From: an uncultured Oscillospiraceae bacterium
GTDB taxonomy: Bacteria; Bacillota_A; Clostridia; Oscillospirales; Oscillospiraceae
Assembly (NCBI GenBank): GCA_947631215.1
Contig: CANRKN010000066.1
Coordinates: 1-11,371 of the forward strand
Reading direction: 5' to 3'
DNA: 11,371 bases
Position numbers and translations under genes: made by a program. Of the stretch, positions 944 through 11,236 are shown one piece after another (within the stretch, counting starts at the first letter, position 1; each line of letters opens with the position of its first letter). The notes beneath the pieces are model-generated. The model made no database searches. It was not told the origin of the DNA and saw nothing but the letters and a program-made list of their open reading frames with translations.

Positions 944-2223
944 TGCGGACGTTCCAGATCATCGTGATCTCCTTTTGCGTCAGCCTGCTGTTTTTTGCGA
1001 CGCATCTGACGGCGGGACTTTTGCTGCAGGAGGGAAAATACCCGGTAAAAAAGACGGCGCTGCTGTGGGGATCGGCGGGTATATTCCTTTTTCTGGAGGC
1101 ATGTTTCAGCTTTTTTTATCTGTCAAAGCCATGGAGGATGCCCATTGCTTTGATGCTTTCGTATCTGTACTTTTGGGGAATTTACATATATGTGTCGGCG
1201 GACGGATTCTGGAAGAAATGCTATCTTTGGATCACATATGGCTGTGTTTTCTGCGTTTCCCTGTCCATTTCATATTTGGGATGCTATTTGCTTGTGCCGA
1301 ACGGATCGGAAATACATGTGTATTTTGTGCGGGGCGTGATCTATGGCATCATCAGTTTTGCGATCTTGCTTGCGTATTATAGATACGGCAGACCGGTCAT
1401 CCGCGAGGTCAGCGGATTTCGCACAAAAAACTGGATATCGCTGAGTATCGTCTCCGTAATATATTTTCTTACTTTCGTGATACTCCTGTCAAAAATCAGC
1501 GCGGACAACGGGATCAATTCAAACACCTTGCTCCTCTTCTCGCTGCTCGCGTGCTCTTTTGCCCTGGCCAACACCCTGATGATAAGCAACATCCATCAGA
1601 TGCGGAAGGAAGCAAGGGACGAGTTGGTAAAGCAAAATGTTGAGTACCTGATATCCTATGTGGAGAACGCGAAAAAGACCGAGCAGGAGAACCGTCGGAT
1701 CCGCCACGATCTGCGCCATCACGACGAGCAGATCGCGGCCATGGCCCGGGAGGGCAACACAGAGGGGATCCTGGCGTATCTTGGGCAGAACAAAGGAGCG
1801 TCGGAGCGTTTTCCCGCATGGTGTCCGAACGTCACGGTCAACGGCGTCCTGCGCTCTTACGCGGGGAAAGCAAAAGAGGCCGGCGTGGAATTCATCGCGC
1901 AGGCGGATACCCCGGCGCAGTCGCCGGTCGCCGATGTGGATTTCGTGGCGATCCTCGCCAACCTTCTGGAAAACGCGCTGAACGCCTGCGTCGCGCAAAA
2001 AAGCGCCGGGCCTATTCAGGTCCATATCCGAGACGTAGGGAATAAGACGGTGGTCGCTGTCAGCAATCCCTGCGGCACGGAACTGAAGCTGGAAAACGGG
2101 CTGCCGGCTGCGCGGGGGGTCGGGATCGACAGTATCGTTTCCTCCTCTGCCAAGTATCATGGGGAGATCAACTATCAGATGCAGGAAGGTATATGTACCG
2201 CCTGCGTGATCCTGAATCCGTGA
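943..2223 (+). CDS. GHKL-domain sensor histidine kinase (AgrC-like)
   Basis: This is a 426-residue membrane sensor kinase. The first 215 or so residues are strongly hydrophobic, with about six or seven predicted membrane segments and no large extracellular domain. A helical linker follows, then a SpoOB-type H-box with H255 in RIRHDLRHHDEQ. The C-terminal GHKL ATPase has an N-box at about 337-348 (NLLENALNA, with N344 as the likely Mg/ATP ligand) and a G-box at 391-395 (RGVGI). The motifs look intact, so it should autophosphorylate H255 and pass phosphate to D60 of the adjacent regulator. AAGGGAGG at 925-932 provides the ribosome binding site. Unlike agr loci, no peptide pheromone precursor or AgrB-like protease is seen, so the signal is unknown; substrates of the downstream transporters are one possibility. 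The membrane half is visibly more AT-rich than the ATPase half. Confidence 0.92.
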   Translation: MRTFQIIVISFCVSLLFFATHLTAGLLLQEGKYPVKKTALLWGSAGIFLFLEACFSFFYLSKPWRMPIALMLSYLYFWGIYIYVSADGFWKKCYLWITYGCVFCVSLSISYLGCYLLVPNGSEIHVYFVRGVIYGIISFAILLAYYRYGRPVIREVSGFRTKNWISLSIVSVIYFLTFVILLSKISADNGINSNTLLLFSLLACSFALANTLMISNIHQMRKEARDELVKQNVEYLISYVENAKKTEQENRRIRHDLRHHDEQIAAMAREGNTEGILAYLGQNKGASERFPAWCPNVTVNGVLRSYAGKAKEAGVEFIAQADTPAQSPVADVDFVAILANLLENALNACVAQKSAGPIQVHIRDVGNKTVVAVSNPCGTELKLENGLPAARGVGIDSIVSSSAKYHGEINYQMQEGICTACVILNP

Positions 2224-2238
2224 AATTTCATTCTGAAT

Positions 2239-2264
2239 GCCGCCTTCGGGCGGCTTTTCCTTTT
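2239..2264 (+). terminator. Rho-independent terminator of the two-component operon
   Basis: A GCCGCC/GGCGGC stem (2239-2244 with 2249-2254) closed by a TTCG tetraloop is followed directly by TTTTCCTTTT. It lies 16 bases after the kinase stop codon. It separates the regulatory pair from the transporter operon, which therefore needs its own promoter. Confidence 0.93.
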
Positions 2265-2272
2265 CTGCCGGA

Positions 2273-2304
2273 GACCAATTTCGGAATCAAAACGACCAAT
2301 TTCG
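2273..2304 (+). promoter_or_regulatory. Paired 11-bp direct repeat, candidate LytTR operator
   Basis: GACCAATTTCG occurs at 2273-2283 and identically at 2294-2304, with 10 bp between the copies and 21 bp start to start. LytTR regulators such as AgrA and ComE bind direct repeats about two helical turns apart, just upstream of promoters with weak -35 boxes. The copies would sit at roughly -72 and -51 from the predicted start site. The repeat is seen directly; its binding by the regulator encoded at 218-943 is inferred from position, spacing and architecture. Confidence 0.6.
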
Positions 2305-2309
2305 ATGTT

Positions 2310-2338
2310 TTCCCCCATTCTTTAAATCGCTGTATTAT
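2310..2338 (+). promoter_or_regulatory. Predicted activator-dependent promoter of the STAS/transporter operon
   Basis: A TATTAT -10 box (2333-2338, 5/6 consensus) lies in a very AT-rich stretch (2329-2356). The sequence 17 bp upstream (2310-2315, TTCCCC) is a poor -35 box, so the promoter probably needs an activator. The direct repeats end 5 bp before the -35 position, where a bound LytTR dimer could contact RNA polymerase. An alternative -10 (TATATT) overlaps a few bases downstream. Confidence 0.5.
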
Positions 2339-2375
2339 ATATATTAAATTAATTTCAGAATCATGGGAGAGGTCT

Positions 2376-2459
2376 ATGAACATCAGACAGACGCCGGACG
2401 CCGCGGGGATCGACGAGGTCTGGATGCGGTCGAACAGCAGCTTGGAAAATATGGACTGA
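2376..2459 (+). CDS. Possible 27-residue leader peptide
   Basis: A short frame begins MNIRQT and ends at TGA 2457-2459, 16 nt before the STAS start. GGGAG at 2365-2369 gives a usable ribosome binding site with 6-nt spacing. The first residues resemble those of the STAS protein (MNIQKT), whose start lies exactly 100 nt downstream. A competing 38-codon frame starts at ATG 2363 and its stop (2477-2479) overlaps the STAS start, but it has no upstream ribosome binding site. I do not recognise either peptide, and this may simply be untranslated leader. Confidence 0.2.
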   Translation: MNIRQTPDAAGIDEVWMRSNSSLENMD

Positions 2460-2475
2460 AAAAAGAGGTAAGACC

Positions 2476-2772
2476 ATGAACATTCAAAAGACGGTGACCG
2501 GAACGACTTTGACCGTAAAGCTGGAGGGGAGACTGGATACCACGACCGCCCCGCAGCTGGAGAAAGAACTCAGGGACAGCATGGATGGCACAACCTGCCT
2601 TGTGATCGATCTTGCGGAGCTGGCGTACATCTCGTCCGCCGGTCTGCGCGTGCTTCTGGCCATGCAGAAGATCATGAACAGGCAGGGCGTGATGCGGATC
2701 AAAAATGCGAACGAAACGGTCATGGATATATTTGAGGTCACGGGTTTTTCAGATATTTTAACGATCGAGTAA
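2476..2772 (+). CDS. STAS-domain protein (anti-sigma factor antagonist type, RsbV/SpoIIAA-like)
   Basis: This 98-residue single-domain protein covers the whole length of a typical RsbV/SpoIIAA STAS fold. It shows the early 'L.G.LDT.TAP.LE..L' segment (about 16-32), the hydrophobic strand LVIDLAEL (42-49) and the ISSAGLRVLL loop-helix (52-61). By alignment to SpoIIAA, S54 corresponds to the phosphorylatable serine. Such proteins bind RsbW-type ATPase domains and switch partner when phosphorylated. No stand-alone RsbW kinase, SpoIIE/PP2C phosphatase or sigma factor is in the window, but three downstream transporter proteins carry RsbW-like domains, so those are its likely partners (inference). 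GAGGTA at 2465-2470 is the ribosome binding site. The stop overlaps the ribosome-binding region of the next gene, so the two are coupled. Confidence 0.9.
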   Translation: MNIQKTVTGTTLTVKLEGRLDTTTAPQLEKELRDSMDGTTCLVIDLAELAYISSAGLRVLLAMQKIMNRQGVMRIKNANETVMDIFEVTGFSDILTIE

Positions 2773-2789
2773 TGAAGGAGAGATGGAAT

Positions 2790-2987
2790 ATGGAGAGCAA
2801 ATGCGACAACAAACGGGACTGTCCCTGCACCTACGACTGCCCGCGGCACGGCAAATGCTGCGCCTGCGTGGCCCATCACCGCGATCATGATGAGGGCGTG
2901 CCGGGCTGCTTCTTTTCCAAAGAGGCGGAAGCGACCTATGACCGGAGCATCGAGGCGCTGGCCAGGGATCACGGGATCATCCAATAG
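2790..2987 (+). CDS. Small cysteine-rich DUF6485-type protein
   Basis: This 65-residue protein has eight cysteines in the first 40 residues (C5, C11, C13, C17, C23, C24, C26, C40), and H20, H29, H30 and H33 are interspersed. The CPCTY-CPRHGKCC-CV--H pattern followed by a CFF motif matches my recollection of the DUF6485 family of anaerobic Firmicutes. That layout suggests metal binding, probably zinc, but the function is unknown. I chose ATG 2790 because AAGGAG (2775-2780) stands 9 nt before it. An in-frame ATG at 2772, overlapping the STAS stop, would place that same AAGGAG inside the coding region and lacks its own site. It is transcribed between the STAS gene and the first transporter, and whether it belongs to the system functionally is unclear. 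Confidence 0.8.
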   Translation: MESKCDNKRDCPCTYDCPRHGKCCACVAHHRDHDEGVPGCFFSKEAEATYDRSIEALARDHGIIQ

Positions 2988-3053
2988 GAGACTGTGACGC
3001 AATGGCCCGTAAACAAAGAGGAACTGGCACATGGTGACAAGGAGAGGTGAACC

Positions 3054-4691
3054 ATGAACGATAAAAAGACAGTGACCGAAACGATCAAACCCCGGGGGGT
3101 AAAGGTAAACTCCCGCAGCGAAAACTACCCCCTGTCCGCGAAGACGATCGACACAGTATCCGGGATATGCGTGCAGGCGCTTTCGGAGGCAGGGGCGGAT
3201 AGAAAGGATATCATCCGCGTCCGCCTGTCCCTGGAGGAGATCCTGGGCGTCTGGCTGGAGCCTTTGGCGGGCGCTATGGTCCATGTGGACTGCGGGCAGA
3301 AATTTGGACGGGCTTTTTTGAAAATAAGCGTTGACGGTCCGACCATAGACCCATGGGATGACGAGGCTTTGGTGCTCAGCAGCCGTATGCTCTCCCAGGC
3401 AGGGCTTTCGTTTACATACGCCTATAAGGACGGAAAAAACTGTCTGGTCTGCAATCCCAAGAAAAAGAAGTCGTCCATGGGACAGCTGGCGTTTCTTTTG
3501 GGCGCGGTTTTCCTGGCAGCGTTCCTGGGTCTCGCCATGAGGCGGGCCCCGGTCATGCGGTCGGCGGCTCTTTCGGTCACGGAGCCCCTGTTCAATATGA
3601 TCCTGGGTGCGCTCCGGGCGGTCTCGTCCCCGCTGGTATTCCTGGCCGTCTGCTGTGGGATCGTGAGCATCGGCGATCTGACGATGGTAGGCAGGGTCGG
3701 CAAAAAACTGATCTTCAGAATGATCACGGGGACATTTGCTTTGGCGGTGGTCATGGCATTGGCGGGCTGCCTGCTGTTTCCCATCGCCTCGGAAGCGGGG
3801 GATGGGATCACAGGCGATTATTCGGCGATCTATCAGATGGTGCTGGACATCGTGCCCTCGGATATCGTCTCGCCGTTCCTGAACGGAAACGCGCTACAGC
3901 TCGTTTTCCTGGGCATCTGCGTGGGAGCCGCTTTCCTGATCCTGGGCGAGCGGGTATCGGCAGCCCAAAATACCCTCCTGCAGGTGAACGAGGCTGTAGG
4001 GTTCCTGATGAGCGTACTGGGAAAGATCATTCCCTTGTTCGTGTTTTTAAGCCTGTTCAACCTTATCCTTTCCGATTTTGGCAGCGGATTTTCAAGCCTG
4101 TTCAAGGTGTTTGCGATCACGATACCGGGATGCTTTATCCTGACATTGTTTTATGTCTTCGTGGCGGCCGCGCGGCTGAAGGTCAGCCCTGTCCTTCTGA
4201 TGAGGAAAATGCTGCCGACGTTTCTGATCGTCCTGACGACGGCCTCTTCGGCCGCCGCCCTCGCGACGAATCTGGAGACGTGCGTAAAGGAACTGGGCAT
4301 CCCCAAAAAGGTGGCGGATTTTGGCATCCCGCTGGGACAGGTCCTTTACAAGCCGGGCTTTGTGGTCGGCCTGTTTTCTCTGGCGCTGTGTATGGCGGAG
4401 TCCTATGGCATCCCCATCACGCCGCTGCTCCTTTTCATGTCGATCCTGACGGTAGGGCTTCTCTCCATGGCGCTGCCGCCGATCCCCGGCGGGGCCCTTT
4501 CCGTATTTACTGTTATGTTTGCGCAGCTGGGCATTCCCAGCGAGGCGCTGGCCCTGGCGGTCGCGGGCAACGCGATCCTGGACTTCTTTATGACGGCTGC
4601 CGGCGTTGCCTGCCTGCAGGTCCAGGTAACGCTCGCGGCGGAAAGCGTCGGGATGCTGGACGAAAATAAGCTGAAAAGGAGCATGTCATGA
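3054..4691 (+). CDS. SLC1-like (dicarboxylate/amino acid:cation symporter family) transporter with N-terminal RsbW-like domain
   Basis: This 545-residue protein has two parts. Residues 1-135 are soluble and resemble a degenerate RsbW-type ATPase domain: a helix with [13 protein letters not shown] (55-67) at the N-box position, VDGPTIDP (93-100) at the G1 position and a final strand [12 protein letters not shown] (124-135). The N-box asparagine is absent (V66). After KKKK (136-139) the membrane part begins, so the added domain should be cytoplasmic. Residues from about 142 to 545 match the SLC1/GltPh fold: HP1 with TTASS (395-399), TM7 with [14 protein letters not shown]2 with PPIPGGA, and TM8 with AILD510. 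Compared with GltPh, NMDGT in TM7 is replaced by YKPGF (432-436). In TM8 the R397, N401 and D405 equivalents are M513, G517 and L521. Standard glutamate/Na+ coupling is therefore doubtful and the substrate is unknown. AAGGAG at 3039-3044 is the ribosome binding site. Its stop overlaps the ABC gene start (ATGA). Confidence 0.85.
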
Positions 4692-7600
4692 TGGAGAACA
4701 AAACAAAAATAACGATACGGTTTAATTGGAAATTCTGCCTTTATCTGTCCCTGGTGATCGTTCTCATATGCCTGCTTCTTGGCGGCTGTGCAAAAAACGG
4801 CGGTGGGAAAGACGAGGCGATAACCGACATCCGTCAGCTGGACGGACAGGCCATCGGCGTGCTGACCGGCTCCAGCTTCGACGTCCATACCGACGAACTG
4901 ATCGAGGACGCGGACAAGCAGTATTACGACAAGGTCCCGGATCTGGCCTTGGCGGTGGAGCAGGGGAAGATCGCCGGCTTTTTGATGGACGAGCCCGTCG
5001 CCCGTACGCTTTGCCTGGAAAACCCGGCGGTGACCTATCTGCCCGATGTGCTGGTGGAGGAGAGCTACGCCGCCGCTTTTTCAAAGACCGAGCGGGGCGC
5101 GGCGCTGCGGGACGAGTATAACGAATTTTTGGCGCAGATCAGGGCCGACGGCACGCTGAAGGAGATCGACGGCATCTGGCTGGGCGCCGACGAGAGCAAA
5201 AAGGTGGTAGAGGACTGGACGGCCCTCCCGGCGGACAACGGCGTCATCCGCATGGCGGAAAAAACGGACATCGCGCCATTCTGCTATATCAAGGACGGCC
5301 AGATCGTCGGATACGACGTCGATATCATGGTCCGTTTCTGCAAGGCCTATGGCTACGGGCTGGAAATGAGCAGCGTGGAGATATCGTCTATTTTCGCGGG
5401 CCTTGCCACCGGTATGTACGACGTATCGGCCACCGGCCTGACCGTGACGGAGGAACGGGCGGAAAGCGTGAATTTCGCCGACCCGGATTATACCGGCGGC
5501 GTGGTGGCGGTGGTCGCCAATCGGGGACAGAACGCCGTCCGCTTCCGGACGATGCAGGACTTTGCCGGTAAGACCATAGGCGTCATGGCCGGCAGCATCT
5601 CCGACCAGCTCGTGAGCGCCGTGGTCAGCGGCTGCGAATTTCAGTATTATGACGACGCCTCCGCGCTGCTCCTGGCGCTGCAGTCGGGCCAGCTGGACGC
5701 CGTGGCCCATGATATGCCCGTGGCCCAGCTGGCGGTGGCCAGGCAGCCGGATCTGGCTATATTCCCCGAGACGGTGACGCCGGACACCTACGGCCTGGGC
5801 CTGCAGAAGGACAGCCCCCTGACGGATAAGATCAGCGCCATCATCGAGCGATATACGGAAGACGGCACGCTGGACGCCCTGCGGGAGAAATGGCTGGGTG
5901 CCGACGATAGTGTAAAGACCATCGATGTGGGGGCGTATGACGCGCCCAACGGCACCCTGCGGTATGCCCATGACTCTACGCTGGAGCCCATGAGCTATGT
6001 GGGCGGGAACGGCCAGTCCCTGGGCTATGAGGTGGAGCTTGTCTCCCTCATCGCCAAAGAGCTGGGAATGAAGCTGGAGATCACCCAGAGCACTTTCGGT
6101 TCGCTGATCCAGATGCTGAGCAGCGGCCGGGCGGACATCGTGTCCGGCGCCATGAGCATCACCGATGAGCGGAAGCAGAGCATCGATTTCCCCATTACCC
6201 ATTATGTGGGCGGCCTGACGCTCGTTGTCCGGGCCGAGGATATGGGCATGGCCGTTCAGGAGGAGGAAACGGGCTTCTGGGCCGGGCTCAAGGACAGCTT
6301 CTATAAGAATTTCATCCAGGAAAACCGGTGGGAGATGATCCTCTCCGGCCTGGGCGTCACGTTCATCATATCGATCTTTGCGGCTCTGTTCGGCACGGTG
6401 CTGGGTTTTGGCCTGTGCCTGCTGCGCCGCAGCCATAACAAGATAGCCTCCGGTATCACGGCGGCGTTCGTCCGGCTGATCCAGGGCATCCCTGTGCTGG
6501 TGCTGCTGATGGTGCTGTTCTACGTGGTATTCGCCAGGGCGAGACTGGACGGCATCGTCGTGGCCATCATCGGCTTCACCATCAACTTCGGCGTCTACGT
6601 CTCCGAAATGATCCGCACCGGCATCGACGCCGTGGACGTCGGCCAGTGGGAGGCGGCGTCCGCCATGGGCTTCGGCCGGGTCAAGACCTTTACGAAGATC
6701 ATCGCGCCCCAGGCGGCGCGGCATATCCTGCCGGTATACAGGGGCGAATTCATCTCCATGGTGAAGATGACCTCTGTGGTAGGGTATATCGCGGTGCAGG
6801 ACCTGACCAAGGTCACCGACCTTATCCGCAGCCGTACCTTTGAGGCGTTCTTCCCGCTGATCCTGACCGCGGTGCTGTATTTCCTGCTGGCGTGGTGCCT
6901 GACCTCTGTGCTGGGACTGGTGGAGAGGAAGATCGATCCCCGCCGCCGGCGCCGGGAGCCCAAGGGCGTCAACAGGAATACCTCCCTGACGGAGATTCAT
7001 GAAGAGGCGAAGGCCGCCCAGGGCGGGGGACCGGTCATCACCATCTCCCATCTGAAGAAGGTATATCCCAACGCCACGCCCCTGAAGGACGTCAACGCCG
7101 TCATAAACAAGGGAGACGTCATCTCCATCATCGGCCCCTCCGGTACGGGCAAGAGCACCTTCCTGCGCTGCATCAACCGGCTGGAGACGCCCACGGAGGG
7201 CGAGATACAGGTGTTCGGCCAGCCGGTGACCGGCGTGAAGCCGGCGCAGCTCGGCGCCGTGCGCCGCCGCATGGGCATGGTGTTCCAGAGCTTCAACCTG
7301 TTCCCCCATCTGACGGTGATCGAAAACATCATGCTGGGGCCGGTGGAGCTGCTGGGCTGCACCCGGCAGGAGGCCTATGAACGGGGCATGCGCCTGCTGG
7401 CAAAGGTGGGACTGGCGGAGAAGGGGCTCAACTATCCCGATGAGCTCTCCGGCGGCCAGAAGCAGCGTGTCGCCATTGCCCGTACCCTGGGCATGCAGCC
7501 GGAGATCATCCTCTTTGACGAGCCCACCAGCGCCCTGGACCCCACCATGGTGGGAGAGGTGCTGGCGGTTATCCGCAGTCTGGCCGAGCAGGGGCTGACC

Positions 7601-8119
7601 ATGCTCATCGTCACCCATGAGATGAAGTTTGCCCATGATGTATCCACGCGTGTATTTTACATGGACGAGGGCGTGGTTTACGAGGACGGGACGCCGGAGC
7701 AGGTGTTCGACCACCCCAGGACCGACCGCTGCCGGGCGTTCGTCCACCGCCTGAAGACGCTGCATATCGATATCGCCTCCAAGGAGTTCGACTTCATCGG
7801 CGCGGCGGGCGACATTGACCGCTTTGCCCGCAAGCAGCTTCTGGGCGCGCCCCAGTCCCTCAAGTATCAGCAGATCTTTGAGGAGCTGTGCGTGACGAGC
7901 ATCCTGCCGGCCCTGCCGGACGACGGGTGCAGCCTGAGCTTCGACGCCCTCTGCAGCGAGGACGGGAGCGAATGCGAAGCCGTCATCCGCTGGAGCGGGG
8001 AGGAGTTCGACCCGCTGACCCAGGGGGATGAGCTGAGCAGGACGCTGGCTCTCAGCAAAACGAAGAGCAGCGCCCACGCCTATGCCGGCGGGGTCAACAC
8101 GGTGACCGTTGTGTTTTAA
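4688..8119 (+). CDS. Single-polypeptide polar amino acid ABC importer (binding halves + permease + ATPase + RsbW-like tail)
   Basis: This 1143-residue fusion contains every ABC-importer part. Residues 1-34 are a lipoprotein-like signal ending LLGGC34. SBP_bac_3-type material follows: a C-terminal half (48-167, D101), a complete domain (185-405, R257 and D342) and an N-terminal half (421-519, R495). The named Arg and Asp align with amino-acid carboxylate and ammonium ligands in HisJ/GlnH-type proteins. Residues of about 545-750 are a HisM/GlnP-type permease with an EAA-like loop (EAASAMGFG from 655). Residues 783-1023 are a GlnQ-like ATPase with intact Walker A (816-824), Q-loop Q867, LSGGQ (920-924), Walker B D944/E945 and H-loop H977. 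Residues of about 1030-1143 resemble the RsbW-like domain of the neighbouring transporters (FEELCV at 1064, WSGEEFDPL to 1110), with the N-box asparagine missing. A homodimer would make a full importer. The start overlaps the upstream stop; AAGGAG at 4676-4681 serves ATG 4688 or the adjacent ATG 4691. Confidence 0.9.
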
Positions 8120-8132
8120 TGAGGTATGCCCT

Positions 8133-9737
8133 ATGGAAAGCGTGGAAGAAAGATATGCCCTGACAGGTCTTAGTATCGACGCTGCCGGAGAGGAGGCCTA
8201 TGAGTTCCTCACGGCGGAGAAGGTGGAGCGAAAAGACGCCCTCAGGGTCCGGCTGGCCCTGGAGGAGGCGCTGCTGCGCTACCGGGACGAGGGAACGGCG
8301 GAGGGATTCACCCTCCGCTGCCGCCGGCGCTTCCGCGCCCCGCGGGTGGAGCTTACTGTACCCGGCCCGTCCCTGGACCCCCTGGCGGAGGGGGATCAGC
8401 CTGACAGCGGCGCCCTGACGGGCATGATGGCCCATATGGGTCTGGCGCCCCTGTGGCAGTACAAGGACGGGGTCAACCGCGTCCTCTTTACCCCCAAGCG
8501 GAAAAAGCGCTCCCTCATGGGCTCCCTGGCCATCGCACTGGTGCTGGCGGTGGTACTGGGCTATCTGTGCAGGCTCCTGCCGGAGGCGGCGCGTTTGACG
8601 CTTTCGGATAAGCTGGTCTCGCCCCTTTTCAACACCTTCGTAGGCCTTCTCACCGCCGTATCCGGACCCATGATATTCCTCTCGGTGACATGGGGCATCT
8701 GCTGCATCGGCGACGTGGTCTCCTTTGGCCGCATCGGCAAGCGGATGATCGCCATGTTCATCCTGCTCACCGTCGTATTGACGACCATCGCGGGGGCGGC
8801 CGTGCTGCCCTTCTTCTCCGTGACCGCGGGGGGCGGCCAGGCCTTCGACCCGACGGAACTGATGGATATGGTGCTGGACATCGTGCCCGCCAACTTCTTC
8901 ACCCCCTTTACAGAGGGCAACCCCCTGCAGATCATCTTTGTGGCGGTGCTTATCGGCATGGCGCTGCTGGTTTTGGGAGAGAAGGTCTCCGTGACGGCCA
9001 CGTTCGTGGAGCAGTCCAACTACGTGGTCCAGCTCATCATGGAGGCGATCAGTTCTCTGGTCCCGGTGTTCGTGTTCGGCAGCGTCTTCAAGATGTTCCT
9101 GGGAGACGAGTTCCGGCTGTTGTTCCAGTCCTATAAGATCGTCCTCATCATGGTCCTGGGCACGGCGGTGGTGATGGTATGCAACCTGGCGCTGGTGTGT
9201 GTCCGGTGGAAGGTCGGGCCCATGACCATTCTCAAAAAGACCATGCCCACCTTCCTCATCGGCCTGAGCACGGCCTCTGCCGTGGCGGCCTATCCCACCA
9301 ACCAGGAGTGCTGCGAGCGGCAGCTGGGCATAAGCGAAAAAATCACCCGCTTCGGCATCCCCCTGGGGCAGGTCATCTACATGCCCGGCGCGGCGGTGCT
9401 GTTTCTGGTGGGAGGCCTGTGCATGGCGGAGACATACGGCGTGGCCATCACGCCGGCGTGGCTGCTGACACTGCTGTTCATCTCCGTGATGCTGGCCATC
9501 GCGGCGCCGCCGGTGCCGGGAGCGGCACTGACCTGCTACACGCTGCTGTTCACTCAGCTGGGCATGCCCATGGAGGCGGTGGCCATCATGACGGCCCTGA
9601 ACGTGATATTGGAGTTTGTCGCAACGGCGCTGAACCTGTTCGGCCTGCAGCTGGCGCTGACGGACTTGGGCGGCTCGCTGGAGATGCTGGATATCGATAC
9701 CCTGCGGAGCGCGGGGAAAGGAAAACGGAAGAAGTAA
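8133..9737 (+). CDS. Second SLC1-like transporter with N-terminal RsbW-like domain
   Basis: This 534-residue protein is a diverged paralogue of the one at 3054-4691. Residues 1-125 are the soluble RsbW-like domain: RVRLALEEALLRY (38-50) at the N-box with R49 in place of asparagine, VPGPSLDPL near 75-85, and YKDGVNRVLFTP before a KRKKR stop-transfer-like cluster. Residues of about 129-534 are the SLC1-like membrane part, with STAS (379-382) at HP1, IPLGQVIYMPG (TM7, Y416-G419), APPVPGAA at HP2 and NVILEF (490-495) in TM8. Relative to GltPh the binding Asp is E494, the Arg is A497, and the cation-site Asp is L505; only N501 is kept. NMDGT is replaced by YMPGA. I chose ATG 8133, with GAGGT at 8121-8125 seven nt upstream, rather than a TTG at 8109 that overlaps the ABC gene. 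It follows the ABC stop by 13 nt. Substrate unknown. Confidence 0.85.
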   Translation: MESVEERYALTGLSIDAAGEEAYEFLTAEKVERKDALRVRLALEEALLRYRDEGTAEGFTLRCRRRFRAPRVELTVPGPSLDPLAEGDQPDSGALTGMMAHMGLAPLWQYKDGVNRVLFTPKRKKRSLMGSLAIALVLAVVLGYLCRLLPEAARLTLSDKLVSPLFNTFVGLLTAVSGPMIFLSVTWGICCIGDVVSFGRIGKRMIAMFILLTVVLTTIAGAAVLPFFSVTAGGGQAFDPTELMDMVLDIVPANFFTPFTEGNPLQIIFVAVLIGMALLVLGEKVSVTATFVEQSNYVVQLIMEAISSLVPVFVFGSVFKMFLGDEFRLLFQSYKIVLIMVLGTAVVMVCNLALVCVRWKVGPMTILKKTMPTFLIGLSTASAVAAYPTNQECCERQLGISEKITRFGIPLGQVIYMPGAAVLFLVGGLCMAETYGVAITPAWLLTLLFISVMLAIAAPPVPGAALTCYTLLFTQLGMPMEAVAIMTALNVILEFVATALNLFGLQLALTDLGGSLEMLDIDTLRSAGKGKRKK

Positions 9738-9829: not shown

Positions 9830-11236
9830 ATGTTATCACCGGAAAAAGTATTCCATGTAAGGGAAGCCGGTTCTACGGTCAAAACGGAAGTTCTGGCAGG
9901 GGTCACGACCTTTATGACCATGGCCTATATCCTCATGGTCAATTCCAGCATGTTTGCGGAGCTGCCGGGGGTGTCCTACAACGCGATCTATATCGCGACC
10001 GCGATCTCCGCCTGTATCGGGACGGTGCTGATCGGGCTGCTGGCGAATATCCCGCTGGCCCAGGCGTCCGCCATGGGCGCCAACGCCTTCTTTGTCTATA
10101 CGGTGTGCTTCGGCTTTGGGCTCAGCTACGCCAATGCCCTGGTACTCGTTTTGATGGATGGGATCCTGTTCATACTGCTCACGGTGACAGGGCTGCGGAA
10201 GAAGGTATTTGAGGCCATCCCGGCGCCGGTAAGGGTGGCGATCCCCGCGGGCGTGGGGCTGTTCATCGCCTTCATCGGGCTGAAGGATTCCGGGATCGTG
10301 GTGGCGGATGCGTCCACCTATGTGGGCCTTGCCTCCTTCAACGTTCTCTCCGGCAATGCAACGTGGAAAGACATCATGCCGATGCTCGTCACGATCGCCG
10401 CTTTGATTGCCATTGCTGTTCTGACATGCAGGCGGGTAAAGGGCGCCGTGCTCTGGGGGATCCTGGGGGGAACGGCGCTGTATTACCTTCTCGGTCTTAC
10501 CGTCCCCGGATTTTATGGGGGGTTCACAGATAATTTGAACTTTAACCCGCTCGCTGCCTTTGGGGACTTTGGCAGATACGCCTTTGGAAAGGTCTTTACG
10601 GAGGGCTTTGATTTTTCGGCCTATCTTGCCGGTCACAGCGCCATGGAGCTCGTCATACTGATCGCGACGACGGCGCTGGCGTTCTGCCTGGTGGATATGT
10701 TCGACACCATCGGCACCCTGTACGGGGCCTGTGCCCGGGGGAACCTGCTCACCGAAGAGGGGGAAGTGCCCAACATGGACAGGGCGATGCTGGCCGACGC
10801 CATCGCCACCACCTGCGGCGCGGTCTGCGGCACCTCCACGGTGAGCTCTTATGTGGAGGCCTCCACAGGCATCGCGGAGGGCGGGAGGACAGGCATGGCC
10901 GCCATGGTGACGGGGGCGCTGTTTTTTGTCAGCATGTTTTTGAGCCCCATCGCGAAGCTTGTCCCGGGCTGCGCCACGGCGGCGGCGCTCATCTATGTGG
11001 GCATCATGATGATGAACTGCGCCAGAAGCATAGACTGGCTGCAAACAGAGGACGCGGTCCCGGCGTTCCTGACCCTGGCGATCATGCCCATGACCTACAA
11101 TATCTCCTACGGCATTGCCTTCGGCGTGATCTCCTATACGCTCATCAGCGTGTTTACCGGAAAGGCGAGGAACGTAAAAGCGGGCACATGGGTGATCGCG
11201 GCGCTCTTTGCCGTCATGTTCTTTGTGACGCATTGA
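9830..11236 (+). CDS. NCS2-family purine permease (guanine/hypoxanthine/adenine type, AzgA/PbuG-like)
   Basis: This 468-residue integral membrane protein takes up purine bases by cation symport. The family signatures are clear: TEVLAGVTTFMTMAYIL near the N-terminus, the AMGANAFF segment (N85), DMFDTIGT (289-296) and GTSTVSSYVEASTGIAEGG beginning at G334 (E343 is in the substrate-binding region of UraA/AzgA-type proteins). Length and hydrophobic pattern fit a complete 14-helix protein. AGAGAGG at 9815-9821 is the ribosome binding site, 8 nt from ATG. It follows the second SLC1-like gene by 92 nt with no terminator visible between, so it may be read through from the transporter operon. It lacks the RsbW-like domain seen on the three preceding transporters, so it is probably a passenger or an ordinary neighbour rather than part of the same mechanism. 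Exact base specificity cannot be read from the sequence. Confidence 0.92.
   Translation: MLSPEKVFHVREAGSTVKTEVLAGVTTFMTMAYILMVNSSMFAELPGVSYNAIYIATAISACIGTVLIGLLANIPLAQASAMGANAFFVYTVCFGFGLSYANALVLVLMDGILFILLTVTGLRKKVFEAIPAPVRVAIPAGVGLFIAFIGLKDSGIVVADASTYVGLASFNVLSGNATWKDIMPMLVTIAALIAIAVLTCRRVKGAVLWGILGGTALYYLLGLTVPGFYGGFTDNLNFNPLAAFGDFGRYAFGKVFTEGFDFSAYLAGHSAMELVILIATTALAFCLVDMFDTIGTLYGACARGNLLTEEGEVPNMDRAMLADAIATTCGAVCGTSTVSSYVEASTGIAEGGRTGMAAMVTGALFFVSMFLSPIAKLVPGCATAAALIYVGIMMMNCARSIDWLQTEDAVPAFLTLAIMPMTYNISYGIAFGVISYTLISVFTGKARNVKAGTWVIAALFAVMFFVTH

Follow-up and report, generated by a model that had tools for sequence, protein, structure and literature searches.

The window analyzed here is an 11,371-nucleotide stretch of DNA from an uncultured Oscillospiraceae bacterium. 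It encodes a STAS protein and three transport proteins: two SLC1/SDF symporters, SDF1 and SDF2, and an ATP-binding cassette (ABC) protein. The original prediction, made from the sequence alone, had described a degenerate RsbW-like domain at the N-terminus of both symporters and at the C-terminus of the ABC protein, next to a STAS protein. We call these extra domains D1 (SDF1), D2 (SDF2), and D3 (ABC). The features concerned are as follows.

2476..2772, + strand: STAS domain-only protein of 98 amino acids, RsbV/SpoIIAA type, motif YISSAGL (PF01740, E 3e-17)
3054..4691, + strand: SDF1, SLC1/SDF symporter with an N-terminal RsbW-like domain (PF00375 at residues 148-518)
3105..3473, + strand: D1, degenerate RsbW-like domain of SDF1, residues 18-140 (AlphaFold (AF2) model, fold searches, hhalign)
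4688..8119, + strand: ABC fusion protein with solute-binding domains, permease, GlnQ-type ATPase, and C-terminal RsbW-like domain (Pfam)
7745..8116, + strand: D3, degenerate RsbW-like domain of the ABC protein, residues 1020-1143 (AF2 model, fold searches, hhalign)
8133..9737, + strand: SDF2, second SLC1/SDF symporter with an N-terminal RsbW-like domain (PF00375 at residues 131-504)
8133..8516, + strand: D2, degenerate RsbW-like domain of SDF2, residues 1-128 (hhalign to D1; PF13581, E 0.05)

From STAS through SDF2, neighboring genes overlap or are separated by at most 66 bases. The STAS protein scored above the cut-off of TIGR00377 (anti-sigma factor antagonist) and retains the phosphorylatable Ser. 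The two SDF proteins scored 183.9 and 213.3 bits with PF00375 against a cut-off of 27.9. Because the SDF domains start at residues 148 (SDF1) and 131 (SDF2) and most ABC ATPase profiles stop near residue 1020-1030, ∼120 residues are left over in each protein. The prediction spoke of three different transporters; three proteins do carry the domain, but the window holds two folds, with SDF1 and SDF2 sharing one. No hydrophobic window was found in the extra domains of SDF1 and SDF2, and Lys/Arg-rich stretches lie N-terminal to the first membrane helix, which fits the cytoplasmic placement proposed for these N-termini. Judged from the transporter families, the substrates are probably amino acids.

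Searched alone, D1, D2, and D3 reached the cut-off of no Pfam model; the single match of D2 was HATPase_c_2 (PF13581, E 0.05). SDF1 residues 1-140 had 39 relatives, all with PF00375, and ABC residues 1020-1143 had 101. SDF proteins on plasmids gave 186 matching records, none spanning 80% of SDF1, and hence lack the extra domain. In profile comparisons with hhalign, D1 and D2 matched each other at E 1e-17 to 1e-19 in both directions, and D1 matched SpoIIE-linked HATPase_c_2 kinases at 1.6e-8 and 2e-9. D3 matched these kinases at 4e-6 and 5e-8 and the HATPase_c_2 domains fused to MATE transporters at about 1e-6, while the direct match between D1 and D3 was weaker (1.5e-4 and 4.6e-4). The best E among 180 column-shuffled control profiles was 0.003, and neither D2 against the SpoIIE-linked kinases (0.004) nor D1 or D2 against the MATE-fused set (0.004 to 0.04) did better than this control. 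By these profiles D2 is a sister of D1, and it is joined to the kinase family through D1 because its direct match to the kinases was not above the control. The domains thus have kinship, as had been proposed, either among themselves or through a common set of kinases. Kinship with the sporulation SpoIIAB kinases of the same genomes was rejected (hhalign E 0.03 to 0.37), so the kin of the domains are the kinases linked with SpoIIE-type phosphatases.

Unrelated folds had been named beforehand as the outcome that would speak against this assignment. The AlphaFold models of the SDF1 domain (predicted local distance difference test (pLDDT) 82, predicted template modeling score (pTM) 0.76) and of the ABC domain (pLDDT 94.5, pTM 0.89) both match the RsbW/SpoIIAB fold; the alignment behind the former included two kinase rows and that behind the latter none. 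Among Foldseek matches at E≤0.001, 15 of 16 for the SDF1 domain and 11 of 11 for the ABC domain were SpoIIAB/RsbW/UsfX anti-sigma factors. When the profiles of the two domains were compared with the PDB by sequence, no anti-sigma factor was matched; the profile of the SpoIIE-linked kinases matched RsbW and SpoIIAB. The identity of the domains rests on profile and fold comparison because the PDB sequence search gave no anti-sigma factor, and on these profiles and models they are nearly certainly RsbW/SpoIIAB-like.

The residues named in the original prediction proved exact. The paired N-box glutamates are E61/E62 (SDF1), E44/E45 (SDF2), and E1065/E1066 (ABC), and the N-box Asn is replaced by V66, R49, and T1070, respectively; the G...DP motifs read DGPTIDP (SDF1 94), PGPSLDPL (SDF2 77), and SGEEFDPL (ABC 1103), and the terminal Y..G.N.v strands YKDGKN, YKDGVN, and YAGGVN. 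For residue counts, non-redundant subsets of 36 of 53 D1, 6 of 10 D2, and 83 D3 sequences (84 minus one truncated) were aligned with 12 SpoIIE-linked kinases and 6 MATE-fused domains. The N-box Glu was present in 36/36 D1, 6/6 D2, and 83/83 D3 (125/125) and in all kinases and MATE-fused domains. The N-box Asn, found in 12/12 linked kinases and 5/6 MATE-fused domains, was present in 2/36 D1, 0/6 D2, and 0/83 D3, and the G1-box Asp, found in the same proportions of kinases and MATE-fused domains (12/12 and 5/6), in 0/36, 0/6, and 0/83. The G2 box lies in a poorly aligned region, where one alignment gave its last Gly in 0/36 D1, 0/6 D2, and 3/83 D3 and a second aligned the kinase GGLG with “GL” in the SDF domains. 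Because the N-box Asn and G1 Asp are missing, ATP binding has most likely been lost from the extra domains.

In the RsbV-RsbW crystal structure, for which the RsbW construct comprised residues 5-145, Ser56 of RsbV is contacted by Glu49 of RsbW (PMC7340262). Alignment of the kinase profile to the crystal chain placed Glu49 at the N-box Glu, provided that the first position of the chain corresponds to residue 5. Taken together with the residue counts, this contact indicates that the domains keep the residue facing the STAS serine and lose those that hold ATP. A phosphorylatable-Ser motif was found in 21/21 STAS proteins of the loci described below.

Linkage of the fusions with STAS, SpoIIE, and kinase genes in other genomes, which the prediction had led one to expect, was found, though in 18 of 42 loci and not in all. 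The 42 loci, all of which have an SDF or ABC fusion, comprise 12 of set A (14, with two lacking the domain-coding part dropped), 19 of the 22 matches of set B (L069 and L070 repeat L002 and L001, and L073 is a short contig), and 11 of set C. The last remain from 20 regions picked, mostly by frame length, from a search with alignment A2, after removal of nine in which no SDF or ABC fusion was encoded; that search (66/295 genomes) is not a count of fused transporters, A2 including two kinase rows. A STAS, SpoIIE, or kinase gene lay within 10 kb of the fused transporter in four loci of set A, nine of set B, and five of set C. One of these, L159, was chosen for its kinase hit, which biases toward linkage; without it the count is 17/41. 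By gene type, STAS was within 10 kb in 16/42 loci, SpoIIE in 14/42, and HATPase_c_2 kinase in 14/42, and the nearest switch gene of each kind shared the strand of the transporter in every case. In 9 of the 17 set B genomes examined, SpoIIE was no more than 10 kb away from the ABC gene, against ∼0.7 expected by hand arithmetic from 75 SpoIIE matches in 38.9 Mb; this excess is an indication and carries no p value, the genomes being related.

In nine loci (L001, L003, L094-L097, and L140-L142) STAS was no more than 50 base pairs from a fused transporter gene. Gene orders included SpoIIE, SDF, STAS, kinase (L142); SDF, STAS, kinase (L141); STAS, SpoIIE-kinase fusion, SDF1 (L010); ABC with STAS and SpoIIE/kinase (L094-L097); and both transporters, ABC and SDF, together with two STAS genes, SpoIIE, and kinase (L140). 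Of these, L142, L140, and L094-L097 count as complete sets. Two loci, L003 and L006, resemble the window in gene order, and after the purine permease they continue with STAS, an MFS protein, and a SpoIIE-kinase fusion; L006 has a D-Ala-D-Ala-ligase-type gene within this stretch. The counts for these two loci are too low, as both loci end short of the SpoIIE-kinase gene, which is ∼5 to 6 kb distant from SDF2. Among the 12 set A genomes, 11 held a STAS gene beyond the SpoIIAB-adjacent one and a HATPase_c_2 kinase beyond SpoIIAB, on our reading of the results.

A sigma region-2 profile (E 0.01) gave no match in the window and 44 loci, and the same profile matched one frame in each of 6/6 SpoIIAB control loci. 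The profile was built from 29 region-2 segments of two genomes, and one control locus (L051) lies in one of these. In these loci the sigma factor's position thus seems vacant and filled by the fused transporters, although a sigma-factor partner encoded elsewhere may exist. Together with the fold, kinship, and linkage results, this supports the interpretation given in the original prediction.

The domain is not confined to the two folds of the window. Of 117 relatives of a MATE-fused domain (from 185 candidates), 116 carried MatE and HATPase_c_2, and one such fusion bears the JGI name Na+-driven multidrug efflux pump/anti-sigma regulatory factor. In the 12 genomes of set A, six MATE proteins with a C-terminal HATPase_c_2-type domain were confirmed (that of L034 falls below the Pfam cut-off); a STAS or SpoIIE gene lies no more than 6 kb from four of them but not from the other two (G001:C6 and G008:C3). 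Three transporter folds thus carry the domain, which sits N-terminally in SDF proteins and C-terminally in ABC and MATE proteins. Separately, a 904-residue protein, P0262, combines an ammonium-transporter domain (PF00909) with PAS/GAF, SpoIIE, and HATPase_c_2 domains and is perhaps a transporter serving as a partner-switch sensor.

We consider it probable that these genes form a partner-switching module that acts on transporter activity instead of on a sigma factor. On this reading, amino-acid-type importers have acquired, at their cytoplasmic end, an RsbW/SpoIIAB-type domain that has lost ATP binding, and a SpoIIE/RsbU-type sensor phosphatase and an intact HATPase_c_2 kinase would set the phosphorylation of STAS. 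Unphosphorylated STAS would dock on the dead domains with its Ser facing the retained N-box Glu and alter transport, by activation or inhibition, and phosphorylated STAS would release them; the transporters would occupy the position that the sigma factor has in the classical system. Docking of STAS on the domains is likely and gating of transport by STAS plausible; that binding depends on phosphorylation is our inference.

Several observations weigh against this module. The 11.4-kb window contains no SpoIIE-type phosphatase or HATPase_c_2 kinase gene, STAS being its only switch gene, so that the phosphatase and kinase would lie beyond the window or elsewhere. No switch gene was present in the stretch read in 24 of the 42 loci, many of whose contigs are short, and the loci are not independent, as the genomes are related. 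One genome (G011, locus L013) encodes fused transporters, yet the sole STAS and strong kinase found in it are the sporulation pair. Kinases linked to the loci might serve an unlinked sigma factor. Finally, conserved counterparts of the RsbW residues that bond RsbV (Arg23, Asp42, Lys44/Ser48, and Tyr118) were not seen by eye in the domains.

The retained STAS-facing Glu and the gene linkage would fit equally well if the domains acted as a decoy or sink that titrates STAS from real kinases or from a sigma circuit; gene regulation would then sense how abundant the transporters are, and there would be no gating of transport. The genomes hold many sigma genes elsewhere (among the matches listed), though none was found in the loci. 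However, more than one type of transporter carries the domains, some at the N-terminus and others at the C-terminus, which is in keeping with an effect on the transporter, and sequestration alone would need no fusion to importers; we regard a sink as unlikely. It is also unlikely that the domains are merely dimerization or assembly modules, or sensors of another ligand, from which STAS binding has gone. The RsbW homodimer is formed by helix 1 and strand 1 (PMC7340262), loss of the ATP site leaves the pocket free, and the many loci without a linked switch gene fit such a role, but all of the aligned domains (125/125) retain the Glu positioned against the STAS Ser and STAS directly neighbors a fused transporter gene in the nine loci named above. 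That the domains are active kinases with an unusual ATP site, phosphorylating STAS themselves, is very improbable, since, despite the retained N-box Glu and the N-box Asn of 5/6 MATE-fused relatives and 2/36 D1, the G1 Asp is gone in 125/125 and the N-box Asn in 123/125 domains, and separate intact kinases are encoded nearby in 14/42 loci.

Partner switching is known mainly from sigma-factor control, with a few enzyme outputs. The proposed transporter-directed module shares with RsbU-RsbV-RsbW-SigB and SpoIIE-SpoIIAA-SpoIIAB-SigF the families of a SpoIIE-type phosphatase, a STAS protein with Ser, and a HATPase_c_2 kinase, and its extra domains share the RsbW/SpoIIAB fold; unlike RsbW and SpoIIAB, these domains lack the ATP-site residues and are fused to transporters, with no sigma factor found in the loci. 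In SiaB-SiaC and similar partner switches the output is an enzyme, not a sigma factor. There, too, an RsbW-fold protein acts on a STAS-like partner, and the fold searches with the SDF1 and ABC domains matched SiaB as well, whereas the output here is probably transport and the domain is fused to its target. SLC26/SulP anion transporters are likewise joined to one half of a STAS/RsbW pair, but in them STAS is fused; here the fused half is RsbW-like, STAS has a gene of its own, and the transporters belong to other families, SDF and ABC. ABC importers such as MalK and MetN carry a C-terminal regulatory domain on the ATPase, the slot that an RsbW-like domain occupies here. The MATE-HATPase_c_2 fusions, which occur in some of the same genomes, also join a transporter to an RsbW-type domain; they differ from the SDF and ABC fusions in the MATE fold and in keeping both the N-box Asn and the G1 Asp in 5/6 cases. 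In searches of an open-access library we found no functional study of the MATE fusions and no description of RsbW domains fused to transporters; the latter absence is weak evidence, preprints and most subscription journals lying outside that library.

The remaining features of the window flank or adjoin the STAS-transporter genes.

218-943: LytTR response regulator gene (Pfam)
943-2223: GHKL histidine kinase gene (Pfam)
2239..2264, + strand: intrinsic-terminator-like stem and T-run, 3′ of the histidine kinase gene (pattern scan only)
2772..2987, + strand: small Cys-rich DUF6485-like protein (PF20095, E 0.0013, below cut-off)
9830..11236, + strand: xanthine/uracil permease-family protein without the extra domain (PF00860)

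The stem at 2239 suggests that the STAS-transporter genes form a transcription unit separate from the histidine kinase gene; the pattern scan gave two terminator-like sites within 2100-3100 against 0.9 expected. The xanthine/uracil permease-family gene is a frequent downstream neighbor of fused transporters, and the DUF6485-like Cys-rich gene recurs beside them (window, L007, L010, L013, L091, L094, L095, L096, and L159).

Other observations were made in the related loci. The SDF2 gene of L003 (15028-16618) is apparently broken and split over two frames, and the ABC gene of L008 (10082-10739) is apparently reduced to fragments; assembly error is possible in both. Directly 3′ of two SDF2-type genes, L152 (4521-5774) encodes a 417-residue protein in which a STAS domain at the C-terminus follows a further N-terminal part. 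Proteins with STAS fused to an APH-type phosphotransferase domain are encoded beside SpoIIE genes in L032 (7103-8278) and L146 (10955-12100). An N-box-like helix, LRLL(A/T)EE, occurs at the N-terminus of a glyoxalase fusion (L095, 3431-4639) and in stand-alone proteins of ∼200 residues (L032, 11563-12177; L036, 7845-8450); all three adjoin STAS or SpoIIE genes, and from this N-box resemblance they may be RsbW-like. In L027 (16920-19768, genome of L006), L035, and L037, two genes are found just 5′ of the SpoIIE-kinase gene, one for an MFS protein that is extended at its N-terminus and one of D-Ala-D-Ala-ligase type; the ligase domains were confirmed in L027.

We lean, if narrowly, toward a partner-switching network that is general in gut Clostridia and independent of sigma factors: a single STAS phospho-switch would gate whole sets of SDF, ABC, and MATE transporters, unrelated in fold, through fused RsbW-type docking domains. 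The loci suggest that a partner-switch receiver was copied, disarmed, and put on transporters of different folds. If so, one phosphoprotein could set the uptake of several nutrients together at the post-translational level, and a membrane-bound sensor phosphatase could act quickly on transport in gut bacteria that have been seen mainly through metagenomes. This would also provide a function for fusions whose database names, if any, are mostly “ATP-binding protein” or plain symporter.

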